Of a stretch of DNA of 64,000 bases, positions 9,159 to 47,813 are shown piece after piece. The number at the start of each line of letters is the position of its first letter. Position 1 is the first letter of the stretch. A model generated the notes under the pieces. That model had not been told where the DNA came from and searched no databases. It saw nothing but the letters and a program-made list of their open reading frames with translations. The translations under genes were made by a program, and so were the position numbers. The stretch comes from Roseinatronobacter alkalisoli (GTDB lineage: Bacteria; Pseudomonadota; Alphaproteobacteria; Rhodobacterales; Rhodobacteraceae): positions 248,001-312,000 of the forward strand of contig NZ_JAQZSM010000002.1 of NCBI RefSeq assembly GCF_028745735.1. The letters are read 5' to 3'.

Positions 9159-9175
9159 TGGCGTCCGACGGGGAA

Positions 9176-9554: not shown

Positions 9555-10754
9555 ATGACCACGGACGCCAGTGAAGCAGAAGACCGAAAGCCGCGGCCGG
9601 GGGTGCTCGCTGGAAACCTTGGTGAACCCATTCGGCTCCAAGATGTGCAACTCGTGGGAGTATCGGCAACTGCATCACAGCCTGGTGGGCAAGTAAGCGT
9701 CTACACCAAAATGGCACTCACCTCTGACGATGCGATGTTCTACAAGATTATCGGCGGTATGTCCCGGGCTATCCAAGGCTTCGCGCAGGCGTCCGGCGTA
9801 GGCGTATCAATTGAGCGAGCATCCACCGTTCTTCTCGTTATAAAGCCGGACGCATCAGCGGAGCTGTGGGTGGACAAGGCCGCTATGGTCGTTCACCAGC
9901 GCCTCAAGCGTCCCGGCGCGATGCCGGGTGGGACTGTCTTATTCGAGAGTGATGTCGCCGACGTTCTTGCTGTCGAATTCCCACTCGTGGAAATTGCGCC
10001 CCAAGACCGAATACTGCTGATACTGCGCGAGGGTTGGCGGTTCGCGTTATACTTCGACTTGGACCGAAGCAATGGCGACATGGATTTGTTGGCGGCACAG
10101 CGGACAATGGGCGCGCTTCTTCGCCATATGAAATATGCCGACCTATACGCAGCGGTCGCAAATACCCCCCTCTTCGAAAAGATTGTGTCCGCCGGCTGGT
10201 TTCCATTTTTGGAACTCATGTCCGGCGAGTTTCAGATGCTGACTGGTATGCTGGATGCCCAGCTATCCTTAGAACAGGCAGAAGCTACGCTGCTCTCAAA
10301 ATTTGATGATGCCCGAATTGAACGTATGTTTGAGCGGTGGATGCAAAGGGCTCACTTCCGAGAGAAGGAAGCAATTATGCGCTCTGCCGTCAATGCGTTT
10401 AAGGCGAAAGATCCGGTTTCAGTCATCAAAAACGCGCTTACAGAGATCGAAGGAATTATGGCGGAGGCCTATTATCGTGGGACAGGCAAGCACACGAGAA
10501 AAATTCCCGATATGCTTAAGTTCGTGGTTGAGTCATCAAGCAATCGAGAAGGTGAAAAAGACACTCTTCTCTTTCCGTCCGCATTTGCTCGATATTTGAG
10601 AGACTATACCTATGCGAGCTTTGATCGCGGAGAGCCCATCGAAACCCTGTCTCGACATGCCGTGGGCCATGGTCTGGCGCGGAGCGAGCAATATACGATG
10701 ACGCGCGCACTCCAGTCGCTCCTGACAATCGATCAGCTTGCGTTTTACGGATAG
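9555..10754 (+). CDS. Unrecognised protein with HEPN-like C-terminus
   Basis: The protein has 399 residues from the ATG at 9555 (MTTDASEAE). An N-terminal part of mixed strands (about 20-190) is followed by a helical C-terminal part. Near the end, R367-HAVG-H372 fits the RX4-6H motif of HEPN ribonucleases and sits in a helix context typical of HEPN proteins (RHAVGHG, then aromatic and Leu-rich residues to the stop). I recognise no named family for the N-terminal part. Codon use is less GC-biased than its neighbours and it stands alone, which suggests transfer. A toxin-like or defence role is inference only. Confidence 0.6.
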   Translation: MTTDASEAEDRKPRPGVLAGNLGEPIRLQDVQLVGVSATASQPGGQVSVYTKMALTSDDAMFYKIIGGMSRAIQGFAQASGVGVSIERASTVLLVIKPDASAELWVDKAAMVVHQRLKRPGAMPGGTVLFESDVADVLAVEFPLVEIAPQDRILLILREGWRFALYFDLDRSNGDMDLLAAQRTMGALLRHMKYADLYAAVANTPLFEKIVSAGWFPFLELMSGEFQMLTGMLDAQLSLEQAEATLLSKFDDARIERMFERWMQRAHFREKEAIMRSAVNAFKAKDPVSVIKNALTEIEGIMAEAYYRGTGKHTRKIPDMLKFVVESSSNREGEKDTLLFPSAFARYLRDYTYASFDRGEPIETLSRHAVGHGLARSEQYTMTRALQSLLTIDQLAFYG

Positions 10755-10945
10755 TTCCCCATGAAAGCGATCATTGCTGTTCGGAGTGGCTTCCTCCGTC
10801 CAATTCAGGATCGAGACTGGGGCGACCAGGCACAATGACTACAACGATGGGTAGGATGCATCTGCCCATGAATGCAGCATAGTCACGAATGGCCGCTTCG
10901 TCCCGCTTTCCTGCCATTCGTCAATACCCGCCCCCCAACCCCACG

Positions 10946-10972
10946 CAAAAAGCCGCACCCGAAGGTGCGGCT
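10946..10972 (-). terminator. Rho-independent terminator of the first gap gene
   Basis: On the minus strand a 9-bp GC-rich stem (AGCCGCACC/GGTGCGGCT) with a TTCG tetraloop is followed by TTTTTGCG. It begins 25 bp past the gap stop codon. Confidence 0.88.
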
Positions 10973-10996
10973 TCCGGCTGTCTCTCGGGCGTGTGC

Positions 10997-11998
10997 TCAG
11001 CCTGCGCGTGCCATGGCGGCGGCGGTGTCGAGCATGCGGTTTGAAAAGCCCCATTCGTTGTCATACCAGCTCAGCACCCGCACCATACGCCCTTCCAGAA
11101 CCTTGGTCTGGTCCAGATGGAAAATGGATGACCGCGGGTCATGGTTGAAATCCATGCTGACATTGGGCTGGTCGGTCACGCCCAGGATACCCTTCAGCGG
11201 GCCATCGGACGCGGCGGCCACCATGGCGGCGTTGATTTCTTCGACCGTGACATCGCGCGCGGCCTCGAATGTCAGGTCCACAACCGAGACATTGGGCGTG
11301 GGCACGCGGATGGCCACACCATCAAGCTTGCCGTTCAGTTCCGGCAGCACCAGACCAACGGCGCGCGCGGCCCCTGTCGATGTGGGGATCATGCTCATCG
11401 CAGCGGCGCGGGCGCGGTACATGTCCTTGTGCATCGTGTCCAGCGTGGGCTGATCGCCCGTATAGCTGTGGATGGTGGTCATGAAGCCACGCGAAATGCC
11501 GACAGTATCATTCAGAACCTTGACCACAGGGCTAAGGCAGTTGGTGGTGCAGGACCCGTTGGACACAATGCGGTCCGCAGCGGTCAGCTGGTCATGGTTG
11601 ACGCCAAACACAATCGTCTTGTCCGCGCCACCTGACGGGGCGGAGACCAGAACCTTGCCCGCGCGGCCCAGATGCACCTTGGCCTTGTCGGCATCGGTGA
11701 AAATCCCGGTGCATTCCAGCACGATGTCGATATCATCCCACGGCAGGTTCGCCGGGTCGCGTTCGGCGGTTACCTTGATCGGACCGCGCCCGACATCGAT
11801 GCAATCGCCGTCCACCGTCACTGTCGTCGGGAACCGGCCATGCACGGAATCGAAGCGCAGCAGATGCGCGCTGTTTTCAACCGGGCCAAGGTCGTTGATG
11901 GCAACGATTTCCAGATCATCGCGGTTCTGCTCGACCAGGGCGCGCAGCACCAGCCGCCCGATACGGCCAAACCCGTTAATGGCAAGACGTGTGGTCAT
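10997..11998 (-). CDS. gap: Type I glyceraldehyde-3-phosphate dehydrogenase, NAD-type
   Basis: The protein has 333 residues. The Rossmann loop is GFGRIGR (9-15). Asp36 (AINDLG) occupies the position of the Asp that contacts the NAD ribose in NAD-specific enzymes. The catalytic Cys150 lies in SNGSCTTNC. It interconverts glyceraldehyde-3-phosphate and 1,3-bisphosphoglycerate. A paralogue lies 345 bp upstream, and each copy has its own terminator, so they are separate transcription units. The Asp here and Ala in the paralogue suggest a catabolic role for this copy. Confidence 0.95.
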
Positions 11999-12292
11999 CA
12001 GCCTTATTCCCCATGTTTGAAGCGTGGTTTGAAATTCTGTGATTGCGCTAACATGAACCGGACCCGAAAATCAAGCGGCATGCTGGAAAACATGCGCCTG
12101 TGGCCAGGATCGGGGCCGTTTCTGCAGATGGTTACAACCCTGGGCGCAGGATCATAACAAGCATAACCGCAGGGGCTGGTCAATTCCGGGGCTATAGCGG
12201 GCGTTGGAAATTACCAAAGGCACAGCTGGCCCACAGCCTGTCGATTACGGGCCTGCACGCCGATAATGTGACAGCCCGCGTCACCCCATGAA
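11999..12292. other. Intergenic region between the two gap genes, promoter of the downstream copy
   Basis: No credible gene is seen on either strand. The stretch must hold the promoter of the leftward gap gene starting at 11998. No palindrome or known regulator site is obvious. Confidence 0.5.
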
Positions 12293-12320
12293 AAAGGCCC
12301 GCCTTATGGGGCGGGCCTTT
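12293..12320 (-). terminator. Rho-independent terminator of the second gap gene
   Basis: The stem is AAAGGCCCGCC/GGCGGGCCTTT (11 bp) with a short loop, followed on the minus strand by a T-run. It starts 23 bp after the stop of the gap paralogue at 12344. Confidence 0.88.
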
Positions 12321-12343
12321 GTGCGTCCGGACATGGCGTGTCG

Positions 12344-13348
12344 TCAGTGGATCAGCCGGCCCATCGCGGCGGCGACATCGGCCATGCGGCATGAAAAACC
12401 CCATTCATTGTCATACCATGCCAGCACCCGCACCATGCGCCCCCCCACAACCTTGGTCTGGTCAGGCGCAAAGACCGAGGAATGCGGCGTATGGTTGAAA
12501 TCGATGGATACTTTCGGTTCGGGATCATAGGCCAGCACAGCCCCCATGGGGCCATTCGCGGCCTCGCGCATGATGGCATTCACTTCCGCGACAGTGACAT
12601 CACGCCCGGCATAGAATGTCAGGTCGACCGCGCTGACATTGGGGGTGGGCACGCGCAGGGCGGTGCCGTCCAGTTTGCCCGCCAGTTCCGGCAGTACCTC
12701 GCCCAGGGCCTTGGCCGCGCCGGTTGACGTGGGGATCATGGCCATTGCTGCGGCACGCGCGCGGTACAGATCCGTGTGGCGGCGGTCCAGCGTGGGCTGG
12801 TCGCCCGTATAGCTGTGCACAGTTGTCATGATACCGGATTCAATGCCGATTGCATCATTCAGCACCTTGGCCAGCGGCGCCAGACAATTGGTCGTGCAGG
12901 ACCCGTTGGACACAACAAGCTGGTCCGCGCGCAGGCTGCGATGGTTGACGCCGTAAACAATGGTTGCATCAGCATTTTTGGCCGGGGCCGATACCAGCAC
13001 GCGCGATGCACCCCGCCCCAGATGGACAGCCGCCTTGTCGCGGTCATTGAATTTGCCAGTGCATTCCAGCACGACGTCAACGCCGTCCCAGTCCAGTTCG
13101 TCTGGGTTATAGGTGGACATCACCTTGATTGGTCCGCGCCCCAGATCCAGCATATCCCCGTCAACGCGAATGGTGCCGGGAAAGCGCCCATGGACGGAAT
13201 CGTATTTCAGCAGATGTGCGTTGGTTTCAATCGGGCCGGTGGCGTTGATTCTGACCACTTCCACGTCATTGCGGGCACTTTCCGCGATATGTGCAAGGGT
13301 GCAGCGCCCGATGCGCCCGAATCCGTTGATCCCGATGGTGATTGTCAT
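12344..13348 (-). CDS. gap: Type I glyceraldehyde-3-phosphate dehydrogenase, probably NADP-using paralogue
   Basis: The protein has 334 residues from the ATG at 13348, chosen because [15 protein letters not shown] aligns with the paralogue's start. The Rossmann loop is intact and catalytic Cys151 lies in SNGSCTTNC. The residue aligned with Asp36 of the neighbouring copy is Ala36 (RINATG). Loss of this Asp is seen in GapB of Bacillus subtilis, which prefers NADP and works in the gluconeogenic direction. I infer a similar preference here. The two copies are clearly homologous along their whole length and probably arose by duplication or were brought together early. Confidence 0.93.
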   Translation of the reverse strand: MTITIGINGFGRIGRCTLAHIAESARNDVEVVRINATGPIETNAHLLKYDSVHGRFPGTIRVDGDMLDLGRGPIKVMSTYNPDELDWDGVDVVLECTGKFNDRDKAAVHLGRGASRVLVSAPAKNADATIVYGVNHRSLRADQLVVSNGSCTTNCLAPLAKVLNDAIGIESGIMTTVHSYTGDQPTLDRRHTDLYRARAAAMAMIPTSTGAAKALGEVLPELAGKLDGTALRVPTPNVSAVDLTFYAGRDVTVAEVNAIMREAANGPMGAVLAYDPEPKVSIDFNHTPHSSVFAPDQTKVVGGRMVRVLAWYDNEWGFSCRMADVAAAMGRLIH

Positions 13349-36892: not shown

Positions 36893-37426
36893 TTAGGTAT
36901 TTGGGCCGCGAAGCTGAAGATCAAGGGCCCTGATGAGTTCCCCCACTCGTCCGTCCTTCGATGGCGCTGGCGGATAACGAGATAGTATGTCAACGAGCCT
37001 CGGAGTCGCGCGTCGAGCGACACCCTCAATGAATTTGGCTCCGGCACTATGGTTTTCATTCGCGACAAGTTCGGTGGCTCTCGCCGCATGGGCTGCGGCA
37101 CCAAGAATGTGCTTAATCTGGGTGGAGCGAGGCAGTGGATGCAGATAAGAAGCGGCGGCGGCGGCCATGGCGGCACGCGCAGCTTGGTTTGCGGCCTCAT
37201 CTTTGGACTCTTGCGCCGCTCTTAATGCGGCCCAAGAAACGTCACGCAACGCTTTTACTCGAAGACCGCCGCGCGCAAATGCCCATGCTGCGGTGATTGC
37301 ATCTCGCGGCCGAAGATCCGAAGGATCAGTTTTCTCGAATATGGTTAAGACATCTGCGGCATTTTCCGCCGCGAAAGCAGTGACTTCGCGGATATCCCAC
37401 AGGTCTAGACATGCTTCTTCTGACAT
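36893..37426 (-). CDS. Imm-5-like putative immunity protein
   Basis: The protein is a 177-residue Ala-rich helical protein. DLWDIREVTAFAAENAADVL, then RPRDAITAAWAFARGG and repeated ALRAAQESKDEAANQAARAA blocks and AAAHAARATELVANEN follow the Imm-5 (putative immunity protein) pattern of amphipathic Ala repeats. No toxin gene adjoins it. It lies 224 bp left of the integrated element, outside its att sites, and is orphaned. The cognate function is inference from family. Confidence 0.6.
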   Translation of the reverse strand: MSEEACLDLWDIREVTAFAAENAADVLTIFEKTDPSDLRPRDAITAAWAFARGGLRVKALRDVSWAALRAAQESKDEAANQAARAAMAAAAASYLHPLPRSTQIKHILGAAAHAARATELVANENHSAGAKFIEGVARRATPRLVDILSRYPPAPSKDGRVGELIRALDLQLRGPNT

Positions 37427-37648: not shown

Positions 37649-38113
37649 ATGGCGATCCCGGGAGTTGCGGGGCAATCAAGCGAAATCAGCAATGAAGCGG
37701 CCACAAGTTCCAACAGTGCTGCAACGCAAAATCAACAACTTGCCGGGACCGCTTCCAACTTAAAACATCATCAAACTGCCCGGCGGATGCAGCGCGCCGC
37801 TGATCTGGCGCATGCTATCGCGGCGGCAGAACCCGAAGACGCGCGCCCCTTGATGACAGCGGCCCTGATCGACTTGCACGCTGGCATGCCACCATCCGAA
37901 GCAATGGACAATGAGGCCGCGCAGGAATGGGCCAAGTGCGCAGGAGAGGCCGAACTGGTGGCTATTGCCGAGGCGGTGGCGACAGAGTTGCTGACCCGCA
38001 GTTTACACCCTGACCAACGGCGCGGCCTGTTGCGCTGGCTGTTTCTTTCCCTGCCGCTGGCCAACCGCCTGCGCTTCCTGAAATGGGGAAAGGAAAACTG
38101 CGCATGCGACTGA
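37649..38113 (+). CDS. Element protein of unknown function, start within attL
   Basis: The frame gives 154 residues. The ATG at 37649 starts one base before the att core, so the first five codons are shared with the tRNA-derived att sequence. The first 45 residues are Ser/Ala/Asn-rich and low complexity, then a helical region with DLAHAIAAAEPEDARPLMTA. ATG at 37787 is a possible shorter start. Its end overlaps the connector gene. It is the first gene of the structural module; its role is not recognised. Confidence 0.5.
   Translation: MAIPGVAGQSSEISNEAATSSNSAATQNQQLAGTASNLKHHQTARRMQRAADLAHAIAAAEPEDARPLMTAALIDLHAGMPPSEAMDNEAAQEWAKCAGEAELVAIAEAVATELLTRSLHPDQRRGLLRWLFLSLPLANRLRFLKWGKENCACD
37650..37664. 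repeat. attL, 15-bp direct repeat
   Basis: TGGCGATCCCGGGAG is identical to the 3' end of the tRNA-Arg gene at 47737-47751, with mismatches just outside on both sides. It is the left boundary of a 10.1-kb integrated element. Confidence 0.85.
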
Positions 38114-38676
38114 CCATCCAACGCCTGACCCGCCCCCCTACTGGCCTTGATCTGGCCGCAACAAAAGATTTCGTGCGCGTTACTCACTATGAAGAAGACA
38201 CCCAGATTGCGGAAATGCAGGACGCAGCGGCGCATGAGCTTGAAGACGCAGCCGAAATTGCGCTGATCAATCAGATGGTGCGTGTCACGGTTGAAGGCTG
38301 GCCGGAAAGTGACCGCCTGCGCATGCCTATAGGCCCTGTTTTAAGCGATGATCCGGTGTTTCAGGTCATGGCCGAAGGTGACTTAATCGAGGCCGAATTG
38401 ATCCCCGGCATGCGACCAATGATCATTCTGGGCGAGACGGTGACAGAATACCTGCGCCATGCGCGTTTCGTCATTGAGTATCAGGCCGGATTTGGCGCGA
38501 CAGCCGAGGCATTGCCCCCTGATATCCGCCACGCCCTACGCGATCAGGTGGCGGCACTGTATGACTTCAGGGCAGCAAATGCGCATGAAGGCAAGGCAGC
38601 GCATGCACGCGGCACGCTTTCCCAGTCCTATGCCATGCAGCGCGTTATAGGGCGCTATCGTGGGGTGCGCGCATGA
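38104..38676 (+). CDS. Phage head-tail connector protein, gp6/gp8-like
   Basis: The protein has 190 residues from the ATG at 38104, preceded by GGAAAGGA. It starts MRLTIQRLTRPPTGLDLAAT and contains LATKDFVRV...DAQIAEMQDAA-type sequence (DTQIAEMQDAAAHELEDAAE) followed by a conserved PPDIRHALRDQVAALYDFR segment. This matches HK97/phiE125-type connector proteins that fill the ring below the portal. In this element it is placed before terL, not after the capsid gene. Confidence 0.75.
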   Translation: MRLTIQRLTRPPTGLDLAATKDFVRVTHYEEDTQIAEMQDAAAHELEDAAEIALINQMVRVTVEGWPESDRLRMPIGPVLSDDPVFQVMAEGDLIEAELIPGMRPMIILGETVTEYLRHARFVIEYQAGFGATAEALPPDIRHALRDQVAALYDFRAANAHEGKAAHARGTLSQSYAMQRVIGRYRGVRA

Positions 38677-38882
38677 CCGGCCCTGAACTCGAGCGCGCCC
38701 TGTTCCACTGGCATGCCGTGATCAAGGCTACGCCGCGCGGATGGGCCAAGGACTTTGCCCTGTCCATCCAGCGCAACCAACGGCGGCGCAACTGGAAGCC
38801 AACAGCCAAGCAAGCGCAGATCATGCGCACCATGGTTGCCGACCTATTCAGCGGTTCAGATGCAAGGGAGTTGATCGAATAG
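38673..38882 (+). CDS. Small element protein (69 aa)
   Basis: ATGA overlap with the connector gene supports translation. The sequence is basic and helical: WAKDFALSIQRNQRRRNWKP then KQAQIMRTMVADLFSG. It could be a small DNA-binding or packaging protein; TerS identity is not supported. Confidence 0.55.
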   Translation: MTGPELERALFHWHAVIKATPRGWAKDFALSIQRNQRRRNWKPTAKQAQIMRTMVADLFSGSDARELIE

Positions 38883-39305
38883 AAAAGACCCGCGCGTCAA
38901 CGCGGGTCACGGCAGATGTGGGCTTTTACGGGTTAGCTGGCGCATCTGCTTAAAGCGCAACCAAGGTAACGGGTCAGGCGCAAACCAACAAGCACAAATG
39001 CAAGTTGGCGGGGTGTGAATCCCCAAGGGCAGCTTCGCCGCATTTTGCGGTCTCTCCACGCCCTAAGACCCCACTGCCACCCTCTGGCGGTGAACATGGG
39101 AGAGCGATGCCGAGCCGAGGGAAAGGCAGGCTGACCTAATGCTGGGGCTCGTCCGAATTGGCAGGGCAACATGGCAGGCGGTCGGGAGCGGGAGGCGGGT
39201 TTTCCAACCCCGCAGCAGTAACCCGCTTCCCGACCGTCAACCGGGGTCTGAACCGATTGGCAGTGACCAGAAAAGAGCAACGTTGAACTAGAGAGAGACG
39301 CGGCA
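38883..39305. ncRNA. Highly structured region upstream of terL; candidate structured RNA
   Basis: No credible gene. Successive complementary arms are seen: GACCCGCG/CGCGGGTC (38887-38908, followed on the minus strand by TTTTC, so a leftward terminator); CCAAC/GTTGG enclosing GCA/TGC (38985-39008); GGGG/CCCC (39010-39024); GGCAG/CTGCC (39028-39078) enclosing CCGCA/TGCGG; and a long arm CGGTCGGGAGCGGG (39179-39192) with CCCGCTTCCCGACCG (39222-39236) around GCGGG/CCCGC. Which strand is transcribed is open. A packaging (cos/pac) site or an orphan HEARO-like RNA are candidates, not shown. Confidence 0.5.
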
Positions 39306-40955
39306 ATGAAGAAAGACAACAGAACACCGATTGCTTACTTGCCCGGATTTGGTCCCAATGCCGCCGATTTGTCAAAACCTGAGGACCGGGGTGGGACTGT
39401 TCCTTTCTCTCTCCTCCAAAAAATCCGGGGAAAATCGCGCGGCGTGCGCGCTATCCAGTTTTTGGGCCTTCTGTCAGTTCCCGAGGGCAAAAAGGCCGGA
39501 AAGCCGCTTAAATTGGCAGATTTCCAGCGAAAGTTTGTCAAAGGCACATTTTCAAAGAATATCATGGTGGGCGTGCTCTCGATTGGTCGAGGGAACGCCA
39601 AAACTGCCCTTTCCTCTGGCATCGCGCTGGCCGAGCTGGTGGGCGCGCTGGAAGAGAACCCGCAGCCTAAGCGAGAAATCATCCTTGCAGCCCGCAACCG
39701 TGATCAGGCTAAGACAGCCTTCAATTTCGTGGTGGGTTACTATGAGGCGCTGCCGGAAGCTGATCAGGGGCTGTTCACGATCCGGCGCGGCTCAAAGCTT
39801 GAAGTTGAATTTCACAGCAACGGCGGCGGTCTGCTGCGCGTCATCGCGGCTGATGGCAAGTCAGTGCTGGGCGGCGCGCCGACTCTGGCCATCATGGATG
39901 AACGGGCGGCATGGGAACGCGAGAAGGGCGACAATCTTGAAAACGCGATCCTGTCCGGTCTGGGCAAGCGGGACGGTCGCGCGCTGATCATCTCGACCAG
40001 TGCCCCAGATGACGCCAACACCTTTTCGCGCTGGATGGATGAACCGCCCCCCGGCACGTATGTTCAGGAGCATCGCCCCCCAATGGGCCTGCCAGCTGAT
40101 GACCTCGAAAGCCTGCTGATCGCAAACCCCGGCGCGGCTGAAGGCATAGGCGCAACCCCTGAATGGCTGGTGGCACAGGCGCGGCGGGCAATCGCGCGCG
40201 GCGGCTCTGCCCTGTCATCTTTCCGCAACCTGAACCGCAATGAGCGGGTTTCATCCGAAGATCGATCCGTTTTGGTCACGGTTGATGAATGGATGAGCGC
40301 CGAAGTTGACCCGGATCAACTGCCCCCGCGCGATGGTCCCTGCATTCTCGGAATCGACCTTGGCGGATCGCGCAGCATGTCGGCGGCGGCATTTTACTGG
40401 CCTGATACCGGACGCTTGGAGGCCCTTGGAACCTTCCCGAGCTTCCCCTCACTGGCAGATCGCGGCGCGTCTGATGGTGTTTCGGATCGCTATTGCCAGA
40501 TGCATGAGCGAGGCGAGTTGTCTGTCATGGGGGAAAACACCGTTCCACCTGGGCGATGGCTGGCCGAGATTGTGCGCCAGCTGGACGGCATCCAACCTCA
40601 GTGCATCGTGGGTGACAGATTTCGGCACGCTGAATTTGTCGAAGCCATGCAAGGCGCAGGGCTGGCGCGCGTGCCATTCATCTGGCGCGGCTTTGGCTGG
40701 AAAGACAGCGCCGAAGACATCGAGCGATTCCGGCGCGCGCTGTTTGACGGTGAAGTGAAGGTCGCGCCCTCGATGTTGCTGCGCTTTGCCTTCGCAGACG
40801 CGATCACCTTGGTTGATCCGGCAGGCAATCACAAGCTGGCAAAGGCCCGGTCCCTTGGGCGAATCGACGCAGCGGCGGCGACAGTGGTGGCCGTGGCCCA
40901 AGGGGCGCGCATGAAGGCCACGCCGAACAAGAAGGCGCGCGCGCTATGGACCTGA
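39306..40955 (+). CDS. Phage terminase large subunit
   Basis: The protein has 549 residues. N-terminal ATPase: a deviant Walker A GRGNAKT (94-100), Walker B LAIMDE (194-199) and a coupling STSAPDD motif (about 230-236). C-terminal RNase H-like nuclease: ILGIDLGGSRS with Asp351 and later CIVGDRFRHAEF. It drives DNA into the prohead. The ATG at 39306 has weak GAGAG upstream. Its end overlaps the HNH gene by 10 bp. Confidence 0.9.
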   Translation: MKKDNRTPIAYLPGFGPNAADLSKPEDRGGTVPFSLLQKIRGKSRGVRAIQFLGLLSVPEGKKAGKPLKLADFQRKFVKGTFSKNIMVGVLSIGRGNAKTALSSGIALAELVGALEENPQPKREIILAARNRDQAKTAFNFVVGYYEALPEADQGLFTIRRGSKLEVEFHSNGGGLLRVIAADGKSVLGGAPTLAIMDERAAWEREKGDNLENAILSGLGKRDGRALIISTSAPDDANTFSRWMDEPPPGTYVQEHRPPMGLPADDLESLLIANPGAAEGIGATPEWLVAQARRAIARGGSALSSFRNLNRNERVSSEDRSVLVTVDEWMSAEVDPDQLPPRDGPCILGIDLGGSRSMSAAAFYWPDTGRLEALGTFPSFPSLADRGASDGVSDRYCQMHERGELSVMGENTVPPGRWLAEIVRQLDGIQPQCIVGDRFRHAEFVEAMQGAGLARVPFIWRGFGWKDSAEDIERFRRALFDGEVKVAPSMLLRFAFADAITLVDPAGNHKLAKARSLGRIDAAAATVVAVAQGARMKATPNKKARALWT

Positions 40956-41278
40956 AACCGGAATTCGAGCGCCATTCAAAGCGCGTCACATCCACAAAGC
41001 GCTGGCAGGTTCTGCGCATGGCCGTGATCGAGCGTGACGGTTTTCGCTGCAAGAAATGCGGCGCGCGCGGGCGGCTTGAAGTGGATCACAAAAAGCCGGT
41101 TCGCACCCATCCGGAATTGGCTTTTGATCCGCAGAACCTGCAAGCCCTTTGCCCGTCATGCCACGCCAGCAAGACGCGCGTAGAGATTGGGCATCCCCCG
41201 CCCATTGCAACCCCGACGCGCAACGCATGGCAGAAAGCCGTTTGCGCGCTGGAAAATACTACGAAAACAAGCACTTGA
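40946..41278 (+). CDS. HNH endonuclease
   Basis: The protein has 110 residues. Zinc ligands C35/C38 (FRCKKC) and C69/C72 (LCPSCH) frame the catalytic DH at 47-48 (EVDHKKPV) and N64. This is the phage HNH that works beside TerL in HK97-type packaging. It overlaps terL and lies 11 bp before the capsid gene. Confidence 0.88.
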   Translation: MDLKPEFERHSKRVTSTKRWQVLRMAVIERDGFRCKKCGARGRLEVDHKKPVRTHPELAFDPQNLQALCPSCHASKTRVEIGHPPPIATPTRNAWQKAVCALENTTKTST

Positions 41279-41289
41279 AAGGAATAATC

Positions 41290-42555
41290 ATGCTTGAATC
41301 AGTTCGTATCGCCCGGCGTCAGTCGGAAATTCGTCAACAACTGGCCACACTGGCCGCAAATCCCACCCCGACCGAAGACGAAACCAGATCGATGGAAACC
41401 CTTGATCTGGAATACCGCACCAATGAAACCCGGTATCGCGCGGCCCTGATCGCGGAGGATACCGAGCGCCGCGAAGCCGGGGCCGATCTGGAAACCCGCA
41501 GCGGGCAGGAATATGCCGAGTTGCTTGCGCGGTTTGAACTACGCCAGGTCGCGCTTTCCTTGGATAACGGCCGCGCGCTGGATGGTGCAACGGCCGAGAT
41601 TGTGACCGAGTTGCGCAACACGGGCGGATACCGGGGCATTCCTGTGCCATGGGCGGCGCTGGAATTGCGCAACACTGTCGCCGCTGGCACCCCTGACCCG
41701 ATCAGCACGCGCCCGATCATCGACCGGCTGTTCCCCGACAGCATCGCGGCCCGTATGGGCGCGCAGATGATCCAGATTGACCACGGCGCAACGGAGTGGC
41801 CAGTCACAACCGCAGGCGCAACTGTGGGTTGGCAGGCAACAGAAACTGGTAATGTGGGCGGCCCGACCCCCTTCCAGACCGCTGACCGGCCCATGAAGCC
41901 CGATCACACGCTTGGGGTTCAGATGCGCCTGACGCGCAAGGCCATGCTACAGACCGGCAGCGCCTTGGAGCAGGCCGTGCGGCGCGACATGAACGCCGCA
42001 ATGGCCGTGGAACTGGACCGCGCAACCTTCCTTGGCACGGGCGCAGATGGCCAACCCTTGGGCGTGATCACCGGGCGAGCGACATATGACATCGCCCTGC
42101 AAGAGGTGGATGAACTGGCCACATGGGGCGCATTCCGCGCGGGGGTGACCGCCTTCATGACCGGCAACGCGGCCAGTGGCGCGGCTTCAATCAATGCCAT
42201 GATCCGGCCAGAGCTTTGGGACTTCTTGGATGGTGCGATCTGGGATGCGGGCAGCGGCCTGACTGAATGGGACCGCCTGTCCAAGCACCTGCCCAACACA
42301 TACACGACAAACAACGGGCTTGCCGCGCCCGCTGGCGATCCGCTGGCCACAATGTCGCTTCTGACCACAAGCACCGGTGGAATTGCCCCGATCTTCGTGG
42401 GCATGTGGGGCGCTATCGACCTGATCCGCGACCCATATTCAGATGCGCAAGCCGGTGGCCTGCGCCTGACAGCACTGGCAACCAAGGACGTGACGGTTGC
42501 ACGGCCTGCGCAACTGCGCGTGTTGTCCGGTCTCGAAATCGCGGCGGGCGAATGA
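41290..42555 (+). CDS. HK97-type major capsid protein
   Basis: The protein has 421 residues from the ATG at 41290 (MLESVRIARRQSEIRQQLAT) with AAAGGAAT upstream. An N-terminal coiled delta-like domain (about 1-100) precedes the mature capsid fold: GYRGIPVPWAALELRN, PIIDRLFPDSIAARMGAQM, LDRATFLGTGADGQPLGV. It ends overlapping the protease start. It builds the icosahedral head. Confidence 0.9.
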   Translation: MLESVRIARRQSEIRQQLATLAANPTPTEDETRSMETLDLEYRTNETRYRAALIAEDTERREAGADLETRSGQEYAELLARFELRQVALSLDNGRALDGATAEIVTELRNTGGYRGIPVPWAALELRNTVAAGTPDPISTRPIIDRLFPDSIAARMGAQMIQIDHGATEWPVTTAGATVGWQATETGNVGGPTPFQTADRPMKPDHTLGVQMRLTRKAMLQTGSALEQAVRRDMNAAMAVELDRATFLGTGADGQPLGVITGRATYDIALQEVDELATWGAFRAGVTAFMTGNAASGAASINAMIRPELWDFLDGAIWDAGSGLTEWDRLSKHLPNTYTTNNGLAAPAGDPLATMSLLTTSTGGIAPIFVGMWGAIDLIRDPYSDAQAGGLRLTALATKDVTVARPAQLRVLSGLEIAAGE

Positions 42556-43109
42556 TGCTCTGGGGCGCAGCATCAGGCGCGCTGGAGCTGCGCGCCGAAT
42601 TAGGGGGCGTCCGGTTGACCGGGCGCTTTCCCTACAACACCGAGGCCGAGCTTGCACCGGGGCGATCAGAGCGGATCGAGGCCCGCGCATTTGCGGCCCG
42701 GATCGAGGCCGAGGGCGAACTTTACTTCCTTGCCGGTCATGACTTTGAAAAGCCCTTGGCCAGTCGCAGCGCTGGAACGCTGATAATTCGTGACAGCGGC
42801 GAGGCGGTCCAGATCGAGGCGGAACTGGATGATGGCACCAGCTGGGCGCGCGACTTTCTGGCCGCACATCGGGCAGGGCTGATCCGTGGTCTTTCGCCGG
42901 GCTTTCGTGTCGCAGAGGGCGGCGAGAGGATCGAGCGCAAGGGCAGTGGCTTGCTGCGATCAATCACACGTGCCGATCTGATCGAGATCAGCGCCGTGAC
43001 GCGGCCAGCCTATCCGACCGCGCAGGTTGAAGCCCGCGCATGGAACCCGCTGCGCGATGATCAAAACCGGCGCGGCCTGCATCGCACATTCAACAGATGG
43101 AGGCCATAA
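42552..43109 (+). CDS. HK97-type prohead protease
   Basis: The protein has 185 residues from the ATG at 42552 (an ATG at 42555 is possible). Catalytic His63 lies in LAGHDFEKPLA and Ser115 in RGLSPGFRV, the U35-type pair; ISAVTRPAYP follows. It removes the capsid delta domain during maturation. ATGA overlap with the capsid gene couples the two. Confidence 0.88.
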   Translation: MMLWGAASGALELRAELGGVRLTGRFPYNTEAELAPGRSERIEARAFAARIEAEGELYFLAGHDFEKPLASRSAGTLIIRDSGEAVQIEAELDDGTSWARDFLAAHRAGLIRGLSPGFRVAEGGERIERKGSGLLRSITRADLIEISAVTRPAYPTAQVEARAWNPLRDDQNRRGLHRTFNRWRP

Positions 43110-43110
43110 G

Positions 43111-44178
43111 ATGGGCATTCTCGACATTTTCCGGCGCAAGCCAGCTGAGACCAGATCGAGCGGCGCAGGCTATACCGCGCAAGTTATCCAGGCACGGCAC
43201 GCAGCGATCAGCGGCGCGGGCGGTATGGCCGAGCTGACAGCGACTGCGCAAGGCTGCATCTCGCTATGGGAGGGCGCGTTTTCAATGGCGGATTGCAGCG
43301 CGCCGGATCTGCTCACCCGGCGGCATATGGCGCTGATTGCCAGATCTATGGCGCTGCGCGGCGAGGTGATTTTGTGGATGGATGGCGCGCGACTTGTGCC
43401 GGCATTCGATTGGGAGATTTTGACCAAGAACAGTGAACCGCGCGCATATCGTCTTGGCATCCCTGAGACAGGCGGCGGGCGCAGCTTCACAGCGTTGCCG
43501 GGAGAGGTTATTCATCTGCGCACCGGCGCCGATCTGACAGCACCGTGGAGCGGAACCAGCCCCTTGCGCAGATCGAGCCTGACCAGTGACCTGATGCACA
43601 CGCTAGAAAGCGCGCTGCTGGACGTTTACCGCAACGCGCCGCTTGGGTCTCAGGTTCTGCCAGTCCCGGAAGGCAGCGCCGAAGACATGGCCGAGATGCG
43701 CGCCAGCTTCCGGGGCAGGCGCGGGCAAACGATGGTTTTTGAGGGCGTTGCACAGTCAACTGCCGCAGGCATGAATCCTCAGCTGGGGCAGAAACGCGAA
43801 GACCTGTCCCCCGATCTGCAACGCGCGATGACCCGCGAGAGCTTGGAACAGGCCCGCTCTGCGATCCTGATGGCGTTCGGAGTGTTGCCAGCCATGGCCA
43901 ATGCAAGCGCGACAGGGCCGGTAATCAGGGAAGCCCAACGCCACCTTGCGCAATGGACTTTGCAGCCCCTGGCCGAACTGCTGGCCGAGGAAGCAACGGC
44001 CAAACTGGGCGCACCTGTCCAGATAGATCTTATGCGCCCTTTGCAGGCATTCGACACCGGTGGCAAGGCGCGCGCTTTGGGTGCGATCATCAAGGCGCTG
44101 GCAGAGGCCAAGGAACAGGGCATAGACCCCGCGCAGGCGTTGGCCTTGGTGGACTGGAAGGGAACGCAAACCGAATAA
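43111..44178 (+). CDS. Phage portal protein (HK97 family)
   Basis: The protein has 355 residues from the ATG at 43111 (MGILDIFRRKPAETRSSGAG) with TGGAGG upstream. It has WEILTKNSEPRAYRLG, EVIHLRTG and SPLRRSSLTSDLMHTLESA as in HK97-type portals, and ends at WKGTQTE. The family usually has 380-420 residues, so it is slightly short but covers all blocks. It forms the dodecameric vertex through which DNA enters. No adaptor or tail gene follows. Confidence 0.85.
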   Translation: MGILDIFRRKPAETRSSGAGYTAQVIQARHAAISGAGGMAELTATAQGCISLWEGAFSMADCSAPDLLTRRHMALIARSMALRGEVILWMDGARLVPAFDWEILTKNSEPRAYRLGIPETGGGRSFTALPGEVIHLRTGADLTAPWSGTSPLRRSSLTSDLMHTLESALLDVYRNAPLGSQVLPVPEGSAEDMAEMRASFRGRRGQTMVFEGVAQSTAAGMNPQLGQKREDLSPDLQRAMTRESLEQARSAILMAFGVLPAMANASATGPVIREAQRHLAQWTLQPLAELLAEEATAKLGAPVQIDLMRPLQAFDTGGKARALGAIIKALAEAKEQGIDPAQALALVDWKGTQTE

Positions 44179-44290
44179 GGCTTGCCGCCTTGGGTTTCTT
44201 CATGACCCGAACGGCACGGTATGGACGGCGAGTCACGTCAGAACCCCGTCAAGGCGCGGCCCTTTTTCAGATCCTTGAGGGCGCGGCGCA

Positions 44291-44328
44291 GGCCAGCACG
44301 GTGACAACCGGGGCTGGCCATTTTATTT
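44291..44328 (+). terminator. Rho-independent terminator of the structural module
   Basis: The stem GGCCAGC/GCTGGCC (with further GGT/ACC pairing in the loop) is followed by ATTTTATTT. It lies 113 bp after the portal stop and closes the rightward head operon. Confidence 0.8.
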
Positions 44329-44356
44329 GATCGATGGCGCGCTCGAAAAGAAACTT

Positions 44357-44599
44357 TTAATCAGTAAGCTGAATGTTAATTTCGGAATCTTTTGCTGCTT
44401 GTTCATGGTGATTTTTTTCTGCTTCTCGATCAATCACACAATGAAACATTGGGGAATTAAGGTTTAGCACAGTGTGTCCGTCGATCTCGACCAGACTTCC
44501 TTCGACCTTCGTAAAGGTCACCCCCTGAGATACCTCATGGTATCCATTTTCGCCCATTTCGAGCGTTATCAGCGTGTAAAGTTTCCCAGTCTCAATCAT
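44357..44599 (-). CDS. Small element protein (80 aa), unknown
   Basis: It starts MIETGKLYTLITLEMGENGY and has a beta-rich look with GSLVEIDGHTVLNL. It overlaps the end of the repressor gene by 8 bp in the same leftward operon. No family is recognised. Confidence 0.6.
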   Translation of the reverse strand: MIETGKLYTLITLEMGENGYHEVSQGVTFTKVEGSLVEIDGHTVLNLNSPMFHCVIDREAEKNHHEQAAKDSEINIQLTD

Positions 44600-44831
44600 T
44601 TGATTTCCTTTTCAATGCCACACCAGGACCATTCCCATTCTCAGACAAGAACACAACCCCAGCGGCTTCGAGCGCTGCGCGAAGGGCTGCGACGGTATCA
44701 GCAGCAACTAAAGAAACGTCTGTTTCCGCGCGACGAATAGTCTTGTCTGTCCGGCCCGTCATTGACGCCAGATCAGCCTGCGATAACCCAATCATGGCGC
44801 GCGCTGCACGCAACTGTTCAGAACTTGTCAT
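44592..44831 (-). CDS. XRE/Cro-type transcriptional repressor of the element
   Basis: The protein has 79 residues from the ATG at 44831 with AAGG upstream; ATG codons further out would place the start inside the operator. The helix-turn-helix is about 17-36 (SQADLASMTGRTDKTIRRAE). It is divergent from the rightward regulatory operon with a 71-bp intergenic region holding two operator palindromes, the classic switch layout. It probably keeps the element quiescent. Confidence 0.8.
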   Translation of the reverse strand: MTSSEQLRAARAMIGLSQADLASMTGRTDKTIRRAETDVSLVAADTVAALRAALEAAGVVFLSENGNGPGVALKRKSND

Positions 44832-44838
44832 TTTACCT

Positions 44839-44878
44839 TGTCCGGTTTCGGACATTATGTTATGTCCACTTTCGGACA
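44839..44878. promoter_or_regulatory. Twin operator of the element repressor
   Basis: Two 16-bp palindromes TGTCC-N6-GGACA (44839-44854 and 44863-44878) lie 24 bp centre to centre, in the divergent control region between the repressor and the rightward gene at 44903. The inner six bases differ (GGTTTC, ACTTTC), which points to a symmetric dimer binding two sites. Confidence 0.8.
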
Positions 44879-44902
44879 ATACCATAACAGGAGAATAGCA
44901 CA

Positions 44903-45205
44903 ATGACCGATCACACCCCCGCACAGGGGAACGCCCCCGGCTTGCCGAAGTCCAAATTCAACAAGGCGCGTTCTGAATATGATGATGACATCACATTTTC
45001 GATTGAAATTTTGATGGACCGGTTTCGCGGTTTGGCCGCAATGATCGAGATGCTTGGAGAACATCACGGCGATCTGAATACCAGTGTTAAGAGGATCACG
45101 GATGAGATTTACTTCATCGCGGATTCAGTGCGTCACCTAGCTGATGAGGGTGATCTGCTTGCGCGCTATGCTTATGACGAATTGAAAAGAAAGGCCGCAG
45201 CATGA
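44903..45205 (+). CDS. Small element protein (100 aa), unknown
   Basis: AGGAGAA lies upstream of the ATG. The protein is acidic and helical (YDDDITFSIEILMDRFRG, DEIYFIADSVRHLADEG). It is the first gene of the rightward operon controlled by the twin operator. ATGA overlap with the next gene. No family is recognised. Confidence 0.65.
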   Translation: MTDHTPAQGNAPGLPKSKFNKARSEYDDDITFSIEILMDRFRGLAAMIEMLGEHHGDLNTSVKRITDEIYFIADSVRHLADEGDLLARYAYDELKRKAAA

Positions 45206-45471
45206 GCATCCCGCAGACCCTTCACGAAATTCAACTCGCCGCCCTGACCCTGCGCGGCCTACTACGCGGCCTTGAGGATCGAGGGCTATGCAATGACCCT
45301 CGCGAAAAGGACATAACCAGCGCCATGATCAACGCCGCTGCGCCCTTGGCAGAAAGGCTGGCAGACTATTTGTATGACCTTGATGATGATCTGGCCACGC
45401 TCAATGCAATTCAGGCTGAGAAAGAGCTCAGCGAAGAACTTTCTCAAACATCAAAAACTGAAATGAGTTGA
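45202..45471 (+). CDS. Small element protein (89 aa), unknown
   Basis: The sequence is helical with leucine-rich opening (LAALTLRGLLRGLEDRGL) and an acidic second half (YLYDLDDDLATLNAIQAEKE). It is translationally coupled to the upstream gene. No recognised domain. Confidence 0.6.
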   Translation: MSIPQTLHEIQLAALTLRGLLRGLEDRGLCNDPREKDITSAMINAAAPLAERLADYLYDLDDDLATLNAIQAEKELSEELSQTSKTEMS

Positions 45472-45522
45472 CAAGCCACGGCATTGCGTGTTTTCTGAAA
45501 TGAGAACTTGCGAGGGCTTATC

Positions 45523-46191
45523 ATGGCGGCAACTCCCGGACAACTTTTTGAGCGCGTGGCGGATACCTTCGCCATGCCTCTGGTGCAGGTGAAGCAGATG
45601 GACCGTTTTCTTGCCGATGCTGGCCTACGCACCAAGACAGGCGGACGCGGGCGCAATGCCCCCAAAGTCTCGTCGCGCGATGCCGCGCACCTTCTGATTG
45701 CAGCGGCAACAAGTCGGAGCATCAAGGATGCAGCGGAAATGGCTCACACTTTTGGCCAGTTGCCGTTTTCACCCAATCAGGAAGTTTTCGCGGGAGCGGA
45801 GCGATTAACCTTGCTCAAGATCGATGGGCTTTCCCCAGATCACACCTTTGCAGACGGACTTGCCGCGATAATCGATTCAGTGCGGAATGGCGACTTTGAC
45901 GCCGCAATCCGCGCGCGCGGTGAATCAGACCCGCAAAAACTATTGATGGCGGACATTCGAGTGGAGTTGTTCCAGCCGTCGGCCATGGCAAGGATAGAGG
46001 TCTACAATCTCAAACGTTGCCTGAAGATGAACTATGATCAGCACCCTGACTATTCACGGCCAGATGCAATCGAGTTGCTGCAAAAACAGGTGGGCGACAA
46101 GCCGCGATCCGACCTGCAACACATCTCGGCGTTTGGGCTTGGATCGATCCGCGCGATTGCCGATCTGTTAGGACCGGAGGCCAGCACATGA
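45523..46191 (+). CDS. Element regulatory-type protein (222 aa), unknown
   Basis: ATG 45523 with CGAGGG upstream is preferred over the frame's opening at 45508. The N-terminal part (VKQMDRFLADAGLRTKTGGR followed by RGRNAPKVSSRDAAHLLIAA) looks like a DNA-binding helical domain found in small phage-related elements. The rest is unassigned (EVYNLKRCLKMNYDQHPDY). It overlaps the next gene by ATGA. A replication or induction role is possible; not shown. Confidence 0.65.
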   Translation: MAATPGQLFERVADTFAMPLVQVKQMDRFLADAGLRTKTGGRGRNAPKVSSRDAAHLLIAAATSRSIKDAAEMAHTFGQLPFSPNQEVFAGAERLTLLKIDGLSPDHTFADGLAAIIDSVRNGDFDAAIRARGESDPQKLLMADIRVELFQPSAMARIEVYNLKRCLKMNYDQHPDYSRPDAIELLQKQVGDKPRSDLQHISAFGLGSIRAIADLLGPEAST

Positions 46192-46367
46192 GCGCGACCG
46201 TTTATGCCGCCGACCTCTCGGCCGATCTGGGCTTTGGTCGCAACATGCCACCCAAATTTTGGAGCTGGTGCGAAAAGCACAATCTGCGCGCCATTGAGGG
46301 CAAGCCCTACGCCTTCGACCGCGACAAGGTTCAGGACGTGATTAGTGCATCGAGGGGGGCGAAGTGA
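46188..46367 (+). CDS. Small element protein (59 aa)
   Basis: It opens MSATVYAADLSADLGFGRNM and continues WSWCEKHNLRAIEGKPYAF, a winged-helix-like small DNA-binding shape. It is coupled by overlapping start/stop codons to both neighbours. It may act with the following AlpA-like protein. Confidence 0.55.
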   Translation: MSATVYAADLSADLGFGRNMPPKFWSWCEKHNLRAIEGKPYAFDRDKVQDVISASRGAK

Positions 46368-46612
46368 TGGGAAAGGCTTTGCTACCAGACTGGCCGGGAT
46401 ACCTGCGCCGTGCGCGCGCCGCACAGTATGTGGACGTGTCAACCACCAAGTTTGATGATCTGGTCCGCGAAGGCGCTTTGCCCGCGCCTATCACTCGCTT
46501 GGGCGTAAAGGTCTGGTCGCGCGCGCAGATCGACGATCTGTTGCAAAATACCGATCCAGACAGCACGGAAGGGGGGCTTGTGTCATGCGACGCCGTATTT
46601 CCACCAAGCTGA
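46367..46612 (+). CDS. AlpA/excisionase-type DNA-binding protein
   Basis: The protein has 81 residues from the ATG at 46367. A MerR/AlpA-like winged helix is at about 14-59 (RRARAAQYVDVSTTKFDDLV then WSRAQIDDLL). It directly precedes the integrase and overlaps it by 28 bp, the usual place for a recombination directionality factor. AlpA proteins also activate phage satellites. Confidence 0.75.
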   Translation: MGKALLPDWPGYLRRARAAQYVDVSTTKFDDLVREGALPAPITRLGVKVWSRAQIDDLLQNTDPDSTEGGLVSCDAVFPPS

Positions 46613-47712
46613 AATACCTGAGCCAGTCGGGTCACTTCCCGAGCGGCAATCCCCGGCTTTACATGGGGCCGAAAGGTGCGAAGCGCGTCCCCATGCCTGA
46701 CGCGCCAGTCGATCACCCGATGTTTCTTTCGGCCTATGCCAAGGCACTTGCCTCGATCACCGGGGCGGATGGAATCGATCTGCGCTTGCCAGCTCCGAAG
46801 GGATCTATCAAGGACGCCGCTCAAAGCCTGCTGCGCAGTGATTACTGGCGTGACGTTCTAAGAGAAGGCACAAAGGCGCGACGCAGGCCAGAGTATGACC
46901 GGATCATTGAAGCCTATGGACAGGCCGATCTGCGAACCCTCAAGCCTGAACATATCCGCGCTGACCTCAAGGGGCTTAAACCACACGCAAGGAACAACCG
47001 CTTGAAGGTCTGGCGCAGCTTGATGAAGTTTGCGACAGAGGCTTACAGCCTTCCAAGCAATCCCGCGCTGGCAGTAGCGAAGACACAGACAAAAAAGACA
47101 GACGGTCACGCAAGCTGGACACAAGCCGATGTGGAAAAGTTCCGCAAGCATTGGCCGCTCGACAGCGCCCCTCGCCTTGCCTTCGAGTTGATATACTGGA
47201 CTGGCGCGCGCATCTCAGATGCAATCAAATTGGGTCCAGTCAATGTGAGCCGCGACGGGTTCCTAATATTTTGCCAGGGCAAGACGGGCGCCGAAGCCTA
47301 TCCGCCTTTTGACATGGGTGTGTCGCCTCTCGCCGATCAGTATTCATCGGATTTGCACTTGCTACACCAAGCCATCCAAAGGCGACCGTCGCGGCACCTG
47401 ACCTATATGACCACGGCGCAAGGTTCATCGCGATCTGTCAAAGCCGCGTCACAGTGGCTTGCCGAGAAGGCACGCGATGCGGGCATAGAAGGCAAGACAG
47501 CACACGGCCTACGCAAGCGCCGCACTGAACTGCTGATCGAAGCAGGCGCGACCCGCGATCAGGTTAAGGGGTGGATAGGCCACGAATCGGACAGCATGGT
47601 TTCACTCTATGCAAAGAAATTTGACCGGAAGCGGGCGCTAATTGGCACAGACCGAGAACGGCAAAGTTCCAAGTTTTCGGAAAAGTTCCAACAAAAGGAT
47701 GAAAAACCGTGA
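46585..47712 (+). CDS. int: Tyrosine-type integrase of the element
   Basis: The protein has 375 residues. Catalytic residues: R209 (TGARISDA), H307 and R310 (HGLR), H333 (GHES) and the nucleophile Y342 (SLYAKK). An N-terminal core-binding domain lies at about 70-160. It ends 24 bp before the attR/tRNA 3' end, the expected position for tRNA-targeting integrases. Confidence 0.92.
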   Translation: MRRRISTKLKYLSQSGHFPSGNPRLYMGPKGAKRVPMPDAPVDHPMFLSAYAKALASITGADGIDLRLPAPKGSIKDAAQSLLRSDYWRDVLREGTKARRRPEYDRIIEAYGQADLRTLKPEHIRADLKGLKPHARNNRLKVWRSLMKFATEAYSLPSNPALAVAKTQTKKTDGHASWTQADVEKFRKHWPLDSAPRLAFELIYWTGARISDAIKLGPVNVSRDGFLIFCQGKTGAEAYPPFDMGVSPLADQYSSDLHLLHQAIQRRPSRHLTYMTTAQGSSRSVKAASQWLAEKARDAGIEGKTAHGLRKRRTELLIEAGATRDQVKGWIGHESDSMVSLYAKKFDRKRALIGTDRERQSSKFSEKFQQKDEKP

Positions 47713-47736
47713 CTTTTCAAGTGCATGAAAAAGGTT

Positions 47737-47751
47737 TGGCGATCCCGGGAG
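47737..47751. repeat. attR, 15-bp direct repeat in the tRNA-Arg 3' end
   Basis: TGGCGATCCCGGGAG, identical to 37650-37664. The distance between copies is 10,087 bp. The site is within the tRNA acceptor/T-arm end, the normal target of tRNA-specific tyrosine integrases. Confidence 0.85.
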
Positions 47752-47813
47752 GACTCGAACCCCCAACATCCTGATTAGAAGTCAGGTGCTCTATCCAGTT
47801 GAGCTACGGGACC
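47737..47813 (-). tRNA. tRNA-Arg (UCU anticodon)
   Basis: On the minus strand a 77-nt cloverleaf runs from GGTCCCG to encoded CCA. Anticodon stem CTGAC/GTCAG-type with loop containing TCT; T-arm GGGGGTTCGAGTCCTCC. The 3' end holds the attR core; it is the integration target of the element and is left intact. Confidence 0.93.

Follow-up and report, generated by a model that had tools for sequence, protein, structure and literature searches.

A probable capsid-forming phage satellite in a tRNA-Arg gene of Roseinatronobacter alkalisoli, and its compact alphaproteobacterial family

The element at tRNA-Arg(tct)

The DNA considered here (the window) is a stretch of 64,000 nucleotides of Roseinatronobacter alkalisoli (contig NZ_JAQZSM010000002.1, positions 248,001 to 312,000), in which an element of about 10.1 kb with phage-type head genes and an integrase gene lies in a tRNA-Arg gene. 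Exact 15-bp direct repeats, TGGCGATCCCGGGAG, bound the element at a spacing of 10,087 bp (Table 1), and the right repeat coincides with the 3' end of tRNA-Arg(tct), including its CCA; this gene occupies 47737-47813 on the minus strand. With up to three mismatches allowed, the window contains one further plus-strand match to TGGCGATCCCGGGAG, at 54637, and none on the minus strand. A preliminary description of this DNA had taken the two repeats as the limits of a unit inserted in the tRNA gene, and its boundaries are upheld. Read along the plus strand, a small gene, an adaptor gene, a 69-aa gene and a conserved DNA site precede terL and the genes for an HNH endonuclease, capsid, protease and portal; after the portal gene come two minus-strand genes, including that of a helix-turn-helix (HTH) repressor, and then small early genes, g227, an AlpA-like gene and the integrase gene, whose end adjoins tRNA-Arg.

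Table 1. Features of the element, in coordinates of the 64-kb window
Feature	Coordinates	Strand	Basis
attL-side 15-bp repeat TGGCGATCCCGGGAG	37650..37664	.	exact match to tRNA-Arg 3' end
Leftmost gene, 108 aa, c7 position in relatives	37787..38113	+	no PHROG/Pfam hit
Head-tail adaptor, type 1	38104..38676	+	phrog_442, 4e-11
Small conserved gene, 69 aa, cluster c8	38673..38882	+	found in 11/30 compared loci
terL, large terminase subunit	39306..40955	+	PF03354 1e-11, PF20441 5e-6, phrog_9 5e-59
Conserved DNA site, probable cos/packaging	39341..39430	+	core GGTCCCAATGCC at 39351-39362 and pyrimidine tract
HNH endonuclease	40946..41278	+	PF01844 5e-10, phrog_144 6e-21
HK97-fold major capsid protein	41227..42555	+	PF05065 2e-10, phrog_617 2e-15
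Prohead serine protease (S78)	42552..43109	+	PF04586 1e-20
Portal protein	43111..44178	+	PF04860 4e-12
80-aa gene beside repressor	44357..44599	-	no family hit
HTH repressor, divergent from early genes	44592..44924	-	HTH_31 3e-5, HTH_3 1e-4, phrog_14076 1e-6
Two small early genes, 100 and 89 aa	44903..45471	+	gene calls
g227, family-conserved, N-terminal helix-turn-helix	45523..46191	+	relatives' ORFs and structure model
AlpA-like regulator/excisionase, small HTH protein	46364..46612	+	phrog_25900 2e-12
Tyrosine integrase	46585..47712	+	PF00589 4e-13
attR-side repeat, 3' end of tRNA-Arg(tct)	47737..47751	.	tRNA gene and repeat match

The window proteins were scanned against Pfam and PHROGs. 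TerL, HNH, Phage_capsid, Peptidase_S78 and Phage_portal all score above the Pfam cut-offs, and the integrase match is likewise clear. For the adaptor, or connector, Pfam gives a weak match under the cut-off (E 0.0021), and the protein is recognized by its clear PHROGs match. A profile of the TerL family finds the terminase large subunit of PDB entry 6z6d (6e-53), which we take to be the HK97 terminase. The HTH matches of the repressor fall slightly below the Pfam cut-off, as does the HTH_17 match of the AlpA-like protein (0.044), so that both are identified through PHROGs; the AlpA-like protein also matches the excisionase family phrog_66 (9e-4). With these assignments, the integrase, AlpA-like gene, divergent repressor and full set of head genes read in the preliminary description are all recovered. 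The protein of g227 finds 38 matches, 30 of them distinct, among the open reading frames (ORFs) of the loci fetched for comparison. Foldseek searches of PDB and BFVD with its structure model (predicted local distance difference test score, pLDDT, 87) gave nothing at E 0.001, and the best PDB match by VIA-align, the MerR-type CvkR 7xn2, is weak (Z 5.0, root-mean-square deviation [rmsd] 4.3, 120 residues aligned); the protein is probably a regulator. Some starts differ from those of the ORFs: the leftmost ORF opens at the repeat (37649), so its true start is probably 37787, and a codon-usage gene caller places the likely start of terL near 39444 rather than 39306. The revised starts of capsid, protease and portal lie near 41227, 42552 and 43111.

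No tail, lysis, primase or other recognizable replication gene appears among the Pfam and PHROGs matches of the window genes, in agreement with the preliminary description, and these matches also contain no closure protein. The sole tail-labelled hit, of a 100-aa protein to the tape measure family phrog_15478, has an E value of 0.049 and was taken as noise. Similarly, only the HNH protein has a hit labelled as small terminase subunit (TerS), to phrog_4581 over residues 16-80 (1.8e-14), and this is read as an HNH-domain match.

An exact empty site was not shown; the seven same-genus stretches compared keep tRNA-Arg and the right flank, and the left flank of the window is matched only in L347, over 63 bp (loci, contigs and genomes are designated L, C and G). 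In one genome of the genus (G695), an integrase judged by eye to be window-like directly adjoins the same tRNA-Arg (L349, 2756-3844), which suggests that this tRNA gene is a shared insertion site.

Relatives of the element

Of 295 host-family genomes, 33 contain a match to the window TerL at E 1e-30, and in 31 of the 33, among them its own genome, the identity is 46% or more; in a class-wide sample searched at the stricter E 1e-60, matches occur in 2 of 385 genomes, again counting its own. Of 251 candidate stretches taken from genome contigs, 234 are identified as relatives by a TerL profile. By title, about three quarters of the best 80 of these 234 come from Rhodobacterales, for example many Paracoccus and Rhodobacter capsulatus DSM 1710, and the other hosts among the best 80 include Altererythrobacter, Sphingobium, Erythrobacter, Rhizobium, Aurantimonas, Chelatococcus and Methylosinus. 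Judging from genus names, we take the host orders to be Rhodobacterales, Sphingomonadales and Hyphomicrobiales. Viral contigs yield at least 557 further TerL relatives from 600 candidate stretches. Isolated phages are more remote: the top-ranked TerL match has 29% identity, the capsid match has 30% across 60% of the length, and a search of 50,697 phage records at E 1e-3 gave nothing for the window portal.

For comparison of whole loci, 34 stretches were fetched, and the genes of the relatives were called by our own codon-usage script. Three loci with a TerL of about 28% identity (L062, L063, L064) were left out of the family counts; L062 and L064 stay in the comparison of 30 loci. The set of complete elements excludes L060 (rearranged, with a repeat distance of 14.3 kb), L059, L057 and L061. 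Repeats at a tRNA or tmRNA end were found in 20 of the 24 loci tried, and 18 of these entered the size range. From repeat to repeat, the 18 relatives measure 9,647-11,147 bp, and the median of the 19 elements, window included, is 10,317 bp. All 18 att-bounded relatives keep the order TerL-HNH-capsid-protease-portal. Departures from this core order are confined to loci cut by a contig end (L054, L057, L061), the rearranged L060 and the distant L062 and L063. Around this core, the integrases, tRNA sites and accessory genes vary. The sites comprise seven kinds of tRNA gene (Glu, Asn, Lys, Cys, Arg, Ser and Phe) and tmRNA; L042 and L047 adjoin a tmRNA gene, with a repeat of only 13 bp in L042 and none found in L047. 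The integrase may stand at either end, but a circular form would have the same gene order in both cases. Same-order islands at tRNA-Arg(tct), which the preliminary description had proposed as a check, occur three times (L039, L053, L058), and the full prophage that it had named as contrary evidence is seen at none of the 19 complete elements.

The remaining genes of these elements fit the same picture. Among the families listed for the 119 non-core genes of the 19 complete elements (25 of 77 and 25 of 32), there is no tape measure, major tail or lysis family; listed instead are primases, helicases, O-like initiators, excisionases, anti-repressors, DNA-binding proteins and closure proteins, and many relatives encode a primase/helicase or an O-like initiator. 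Inspection by eye of ten loci in longer viral contigs, covering ORFs of at least 230 aa, up to eight per locus, by their first 70 residues, revealed no obvious tail gene outside the satellite genes.

The head genes of the window are open, as first described, and look conserved by purifying selection: in comparisons with up to 12 relatives, the estimated ratio of nonsynonymous to synonymous substitution (dN/dS) is 0.07-0.15 for TerL, 0.13-0.33 for capsid and 0.18-0.26 for portal, and a closer pair, the capsid with that of L165, gives 0.13 at a dS of 0.42. Joint descent of the head genes was considered and rejected. Their pairwise distances across the 19 elements correlate weakly (r 0.07-0.42), most strongly for capsid and portal, where the value was reached by 4 of 999 permutations; correlations with integrase distances are r 0.02-0.07.

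Closed molecules are found among the relatives. Three viral contigs are closed by exact terminal repeats: L263 (10,166 bp, overlap 56), L264 (10,114, overlap 144) and L265 (9,462, overlap 123). A fourth, L079 (9,549), is closed by an overlap seen on reading the junction. Bacterial assemblies hold closed contigs in a Gemmobacter metagenome-assembled genome (L168, unit 10,093), Paracoccus binzhouensis (L183, 10,118) and Gemmobacter serpentinus (L234, 10,340), the last with a stated coverage of 941 that comes without a baseline for comparison. Three more suspected circles (L156, L251, L305) were not confirmed. The seven closed contigs, of 9.3-10.3 kb, point to excised or concatemeric DNA, in the relatives rather than in the window genome.

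Taken together, these results make it very probable that the element in the window is a capsid-forming phage satellite, integrated and intact, which packages its own DNA and relies on another element for tails. Several observations weigh against this interpretation. No TerS is recognized in the window by Pfam or PHROGs, although a strongly divergent one could escape, or among the families listed for the 18 relatives (25 of 32, for 102 non-core genes), and no replication gene is recognized in the window copy. A Neck1 protein occurs in L058, and an 83-aa protein of a 'tail fiber' family in L042. The dN/dS ratios are rough because dS is mostly near or above 0.9, and two of the 12 capsid comparisons (L167, L176) were dropped for a stop in the aligned stretch. 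In five TerL matches, too, the matched range contains a stop; as ORFs of 504-519 aa are still present there, the stop probably precedes the true start. Finally, for the window copy itself, excision is suggested by the circles of its relatives, and packaging and transfer are presumed.

Some side observations concern individual loci and flanks. In the distant lineage of L062 (G263:C61, about 2969-12757), the 9.7-kb element has a 51-bp repeat at tRNA-Arg(acg), the repressor and a g227 relative are placed between TerL and capsid, and one protein matches a portal-sized ORF of the host's gene transfer agent (GTA) at E 2e-30. In the flanks of L266 and L297, in longer viral contigs, genes like those for restriction-system specificity subunits were seen by eye beside the satellites. 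Immediately left of the window element lies a gene for an Imm5-like immunity protein (36893-37426), which is unmatched in the stretches from the seven same-genus genomes and may have arrived as cargo of an earlier insertion.

The conserved site upstream of terL

Upstream of terL, the elements share a bipartite DNA site, newly described here, which consists of GGTCCCAATGCC, about 41 bases, and then a TTTCNCNCT tract. Its first block, taken as 13 bases with a leading T, is present at three mismatches or fewer in 27 of 28 elements (19 exact, five with one mismatch, one with two and two with three), L055 being the miss. Among the 80 named genome loci, a set that overlaps these 28, the site lies near terL in 71 and not in nine. 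When viral contigs were scanned for the pattern, 95 matches were obtained, of which 84 accompany a family TerL, with a spacer of 41-44 bases in 80 of the 84, and an alignment of 30 copies has 12 invariant columns. The distance from the first block to a TerL reference point (the position homologous to residue 39 of the window ORF) is 65-89 bp in 21 elements and 288-608 bp in six. Because of these six, the site is not a by-product of the reading frame. Given that it adjoins terL, is independent of frame and is constant in spacing, it is best read as a cos site, and the sequence comparison thus makes a role in packaging probable.

A late-gene promoter or activator site would also be expected upstream of a head operon, but we consider this explanation unlikely. 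In the six elements just mentioned, the site stands far ahead of the TerL reference point, and its length, its two-part build and its almost constant spacing in hosts of three orders also speak against this reading. A role in RNA is unsupported by any RNA structure, as only three pairs are predicted and there is no covariation.

Some apparent copies were set aside as chance. On visual inspection, a second GGTCCCAATGCC in the window genome (C50) lacks the pyrimidine tract. The 11 of 95 viral matches without TerL were dismissed similarly: seven are one and the same unrelated AT-rich sequence, and the others have spacers of 39 (one) or 30-32 (three), two of these contigs having been checked by ORF list. 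Contig ends did not reveal where the packaging cut falls, as the 140 motif copies in 153 viral contigs show no pile-up there; only in L113 does the motif stand at the exact contig end, the next nearest lying 26 bp away.

Connectors, tails and related systems

The connectors fall into two types that are mutually exclusive. The type-1 adaptor occurs in 10 of 30 loci, type 2 in 16 and both together in none; later gene calls add a type-2 adaptor in L045. Closure proteins, some assigned by BLAST cluster only, follow this division: the phrog_161 kind is found in six type-2 elements and no type-1 element, and the phrog_25 kind in four type-1 elements and one of type 2, the exception being L045. Since connectors have been kept, it is suggested that the heads are joined to tails, and they are probably finished for that purpose.

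Both adaptor types resemble the GTA adaptor, as judged from sequence for type 1 and from a structure model for type 2. The window adaptor matches the adaptor ORF of the host GTA with 27% identity (E 3e-5, 33.5 bits), and eight further type-1 adaptors match the same ORF, the best being that of L035 (E 8e-16, 63.9 bits). Among isolated phages, the L035 adaptor finds six records, the best at 56 bits. The ORF that follows in the GTA is matched by closure proteins of two elements, L045 (E 1e-4) and L051 (E 3e-4). The type-2 adaptor has no PHROG hit. With its model (pLDDT 85.5), the ten best Foldseek rows are phage neck or portal-complex proteins, none below E 0.005. VIA-align over the 1000 best Foldseek chains ranks first the neck adaptor of the Rhodobacter capsulatus GTA (RcGTA), 6te8 (Z 10.8, rmsd 3.8, 147 aligned), ahead of the next phage chain, 9lw9 (Z 7.9, rmsd 7.9, 140 aligned). 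The adaptor of siphophage R4C (8gtd) was rejected as a counterpart; it stands at Foldseek rank 13 (E 0.39) and is not in the 50 VIA-align rows.

Candidate tail donors are a tailed prophage and a GTA of the window genome, and an infecting phage. The prophage, on the 26.7-kb contig C59 (L356, L357), has TerS, TerL, portal, capsid, tape measure and an endolysin-like peptidase. The GTA cluster lies on C98 (L345), and its capsid is the only other PF05065 capsid found in the genome. These data have led to the hypothesis that the satellite docks its own heads onto the tails of the host's domesticated GTA, which would explain why adaptors and some closure proteins match GTA ORFs while the window TerL, capsid and portal match none in the host at E 1e-2, why the L035 adaptor scores higher against the GTA than against isolated phages, and why type 2 fits 6te8 best. 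Furthermore, GTA_TIM is present in the window genome and in 13 of 18 satellite hosts, chosen mostly outside Rhodobacterales. However, the five hosts in which GTA_TIM was not found are all Sphingomonadales, an order we assign from genus names, and so the GTA cannot be the universal tail partner. Likeness to the GTA is also not confined to connectors, because it is found as well in the protease of several elements (E values as low as 5e-6) and, weakly, in the TerL of L033 and L041. In addition, the GTA chain is not among the best 50 of Foldseek for type 2, and the window genome offers the tails of a prophage as well. Docking on the host GTA is thus decidedly improbable as it stands. There is similarly little likelihood in the wider proposal of capsid-forming satellites without TerS, spread through the alphaproteobacteria, whose connectors would be fitted to GTA-type tails and which would ride on the tails of the host GTA or of GTA-related phages.

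A deletion remnant of a tailed HK97-type prophage, which had lost its tail and lysis genes, would have head genes of ordinary phage kinds, as the element does, and might lack TerS and replication genes as the window copy appears to. Some relatives are indeed broken: L060 is rearranged, TerL of L059 is in three pieces, and so is the helicase gene of L039. (In L060 [G215], near 6262-7560, the broken and partly inverted locus has reversed portal pieces adjoining HNH and TerL pieces.) However, decay would not be expected to leave the same order and size in 18 att-bounded elements at different tRNA genes and with different integrases, the lack of tape measure, major tail and lysis families among those listed for the non-core genes, low dN/dS, and closed circles in relatives. 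This explanation is very improbable and is rejected. Hardly credible, finally, is a tail-less virus or vesicle-carried element whose heads would need no tail for release or uptake; although no tail gene is recognized and relatives form closed circles, the adaptors and some closure proteins that have been kept would be needless for such a particle.

The satellite can be set beside several known systems. Phages of the HK97/HK022 type, which have a TerL of the same kind (29% identity), are full tailed phages, whereas the window has no credible tail, tape measure or lysis gene. GTAs are encoded by a head plus tail cluster, with no integrase and no att sites. RcGTA shares an HK97-type head with the element, and adaptors, closure proteins and protease of some satellites resemble GTA proteins; the element differs in having an integrase and att sites and in lacking recognized tail genes. 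Phage-inducible chromosomal islands (PICIs) usually carry a replication module (primase/rep), of which none is recognized in the window copy and which is present in many relatives. An integrase with att sites, an AlpA-like regulator and a divergent repressor are marks of the capsid-forming PICIs (cf-PICIs), and the element has all of these. According to the available parts of their published descriptions, cf-PICIs are likewise integrase-bearing islands with their own capsid, protease, portal, connector, TerL, HNH and regulator/repressor genes and no tails (PMC10690885, PMC13230959). They average 14 kb (available text of PMC10803314), compared with 10.1 kb here, and their listed components include TerS (available text of PMC10690885). 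Because TerS is not recognized in the element, it is placed as a distinct variant and not as a member. Thus, the part of the preliminary description that likened the element to a cf-PICI with its own head and packaging genes and no tail is supported, membership of that group is not adopted here, and its phrase 'reduced or distinct form' is apt, as the gene order and putative packaging site are shared family-wide. The Mulch and Flayer satellites of Streptomyces phages also have their own capsid and packaging genes, and the tail of MulchRoom is thought to derive from its helper; as far as the available text goes, they differ in hosts, in having direct terminal repeats and in using virulent helpers (PMC10690885). 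A novel ocean element, as described in the available text of PMC12324425, is unrelated. In the open-licence literature searched, no report of such elements in these hosts was found.

These comparisons lead to a model for the satellite. The integrase would insert a circle of about 10.1 kb into the 3' end of tRNA-Arg(tct), and once repression ended, it would be excised by the integrase together with the AlpA-like protein. Capsid, S78 protease and portal would build an HK97-type procapsid of the element's own. TerL, probably with HNH, would recognize the site upstream of terL and fill heads that may be sized for about 10 kb. The encoded adaptor, together with a closure protein in some relatives, would then fit the head to a tail of another element, which presumably also supplies lysis, because neither tail nor lysis genes are recognized in the satellite itself. 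The helper, the packaging and the transfer are proposals from sequence.

The element belongs to what is a compact alphaproteobacterial family of capsid-forming satellites, working like cf-PICIs. The finding adds to the head-building satellites a large and apparently active family with hosts in Rhodobacterales, Sphingomonadales and Hyphomicrobiales, and the conserved site combined with the TerL profile provides a sequence tag for finding hundreds more. If TerS is truly missing, the family raises the question of how a terminase finds its DNA without it. The family also offers a testable case of matching satellite heads to foreign tails, in bacteria with well-studied GTAs. Should the tails prove to be those of the GTA, a selfish element would be travelling on the host's own domesticated particles.

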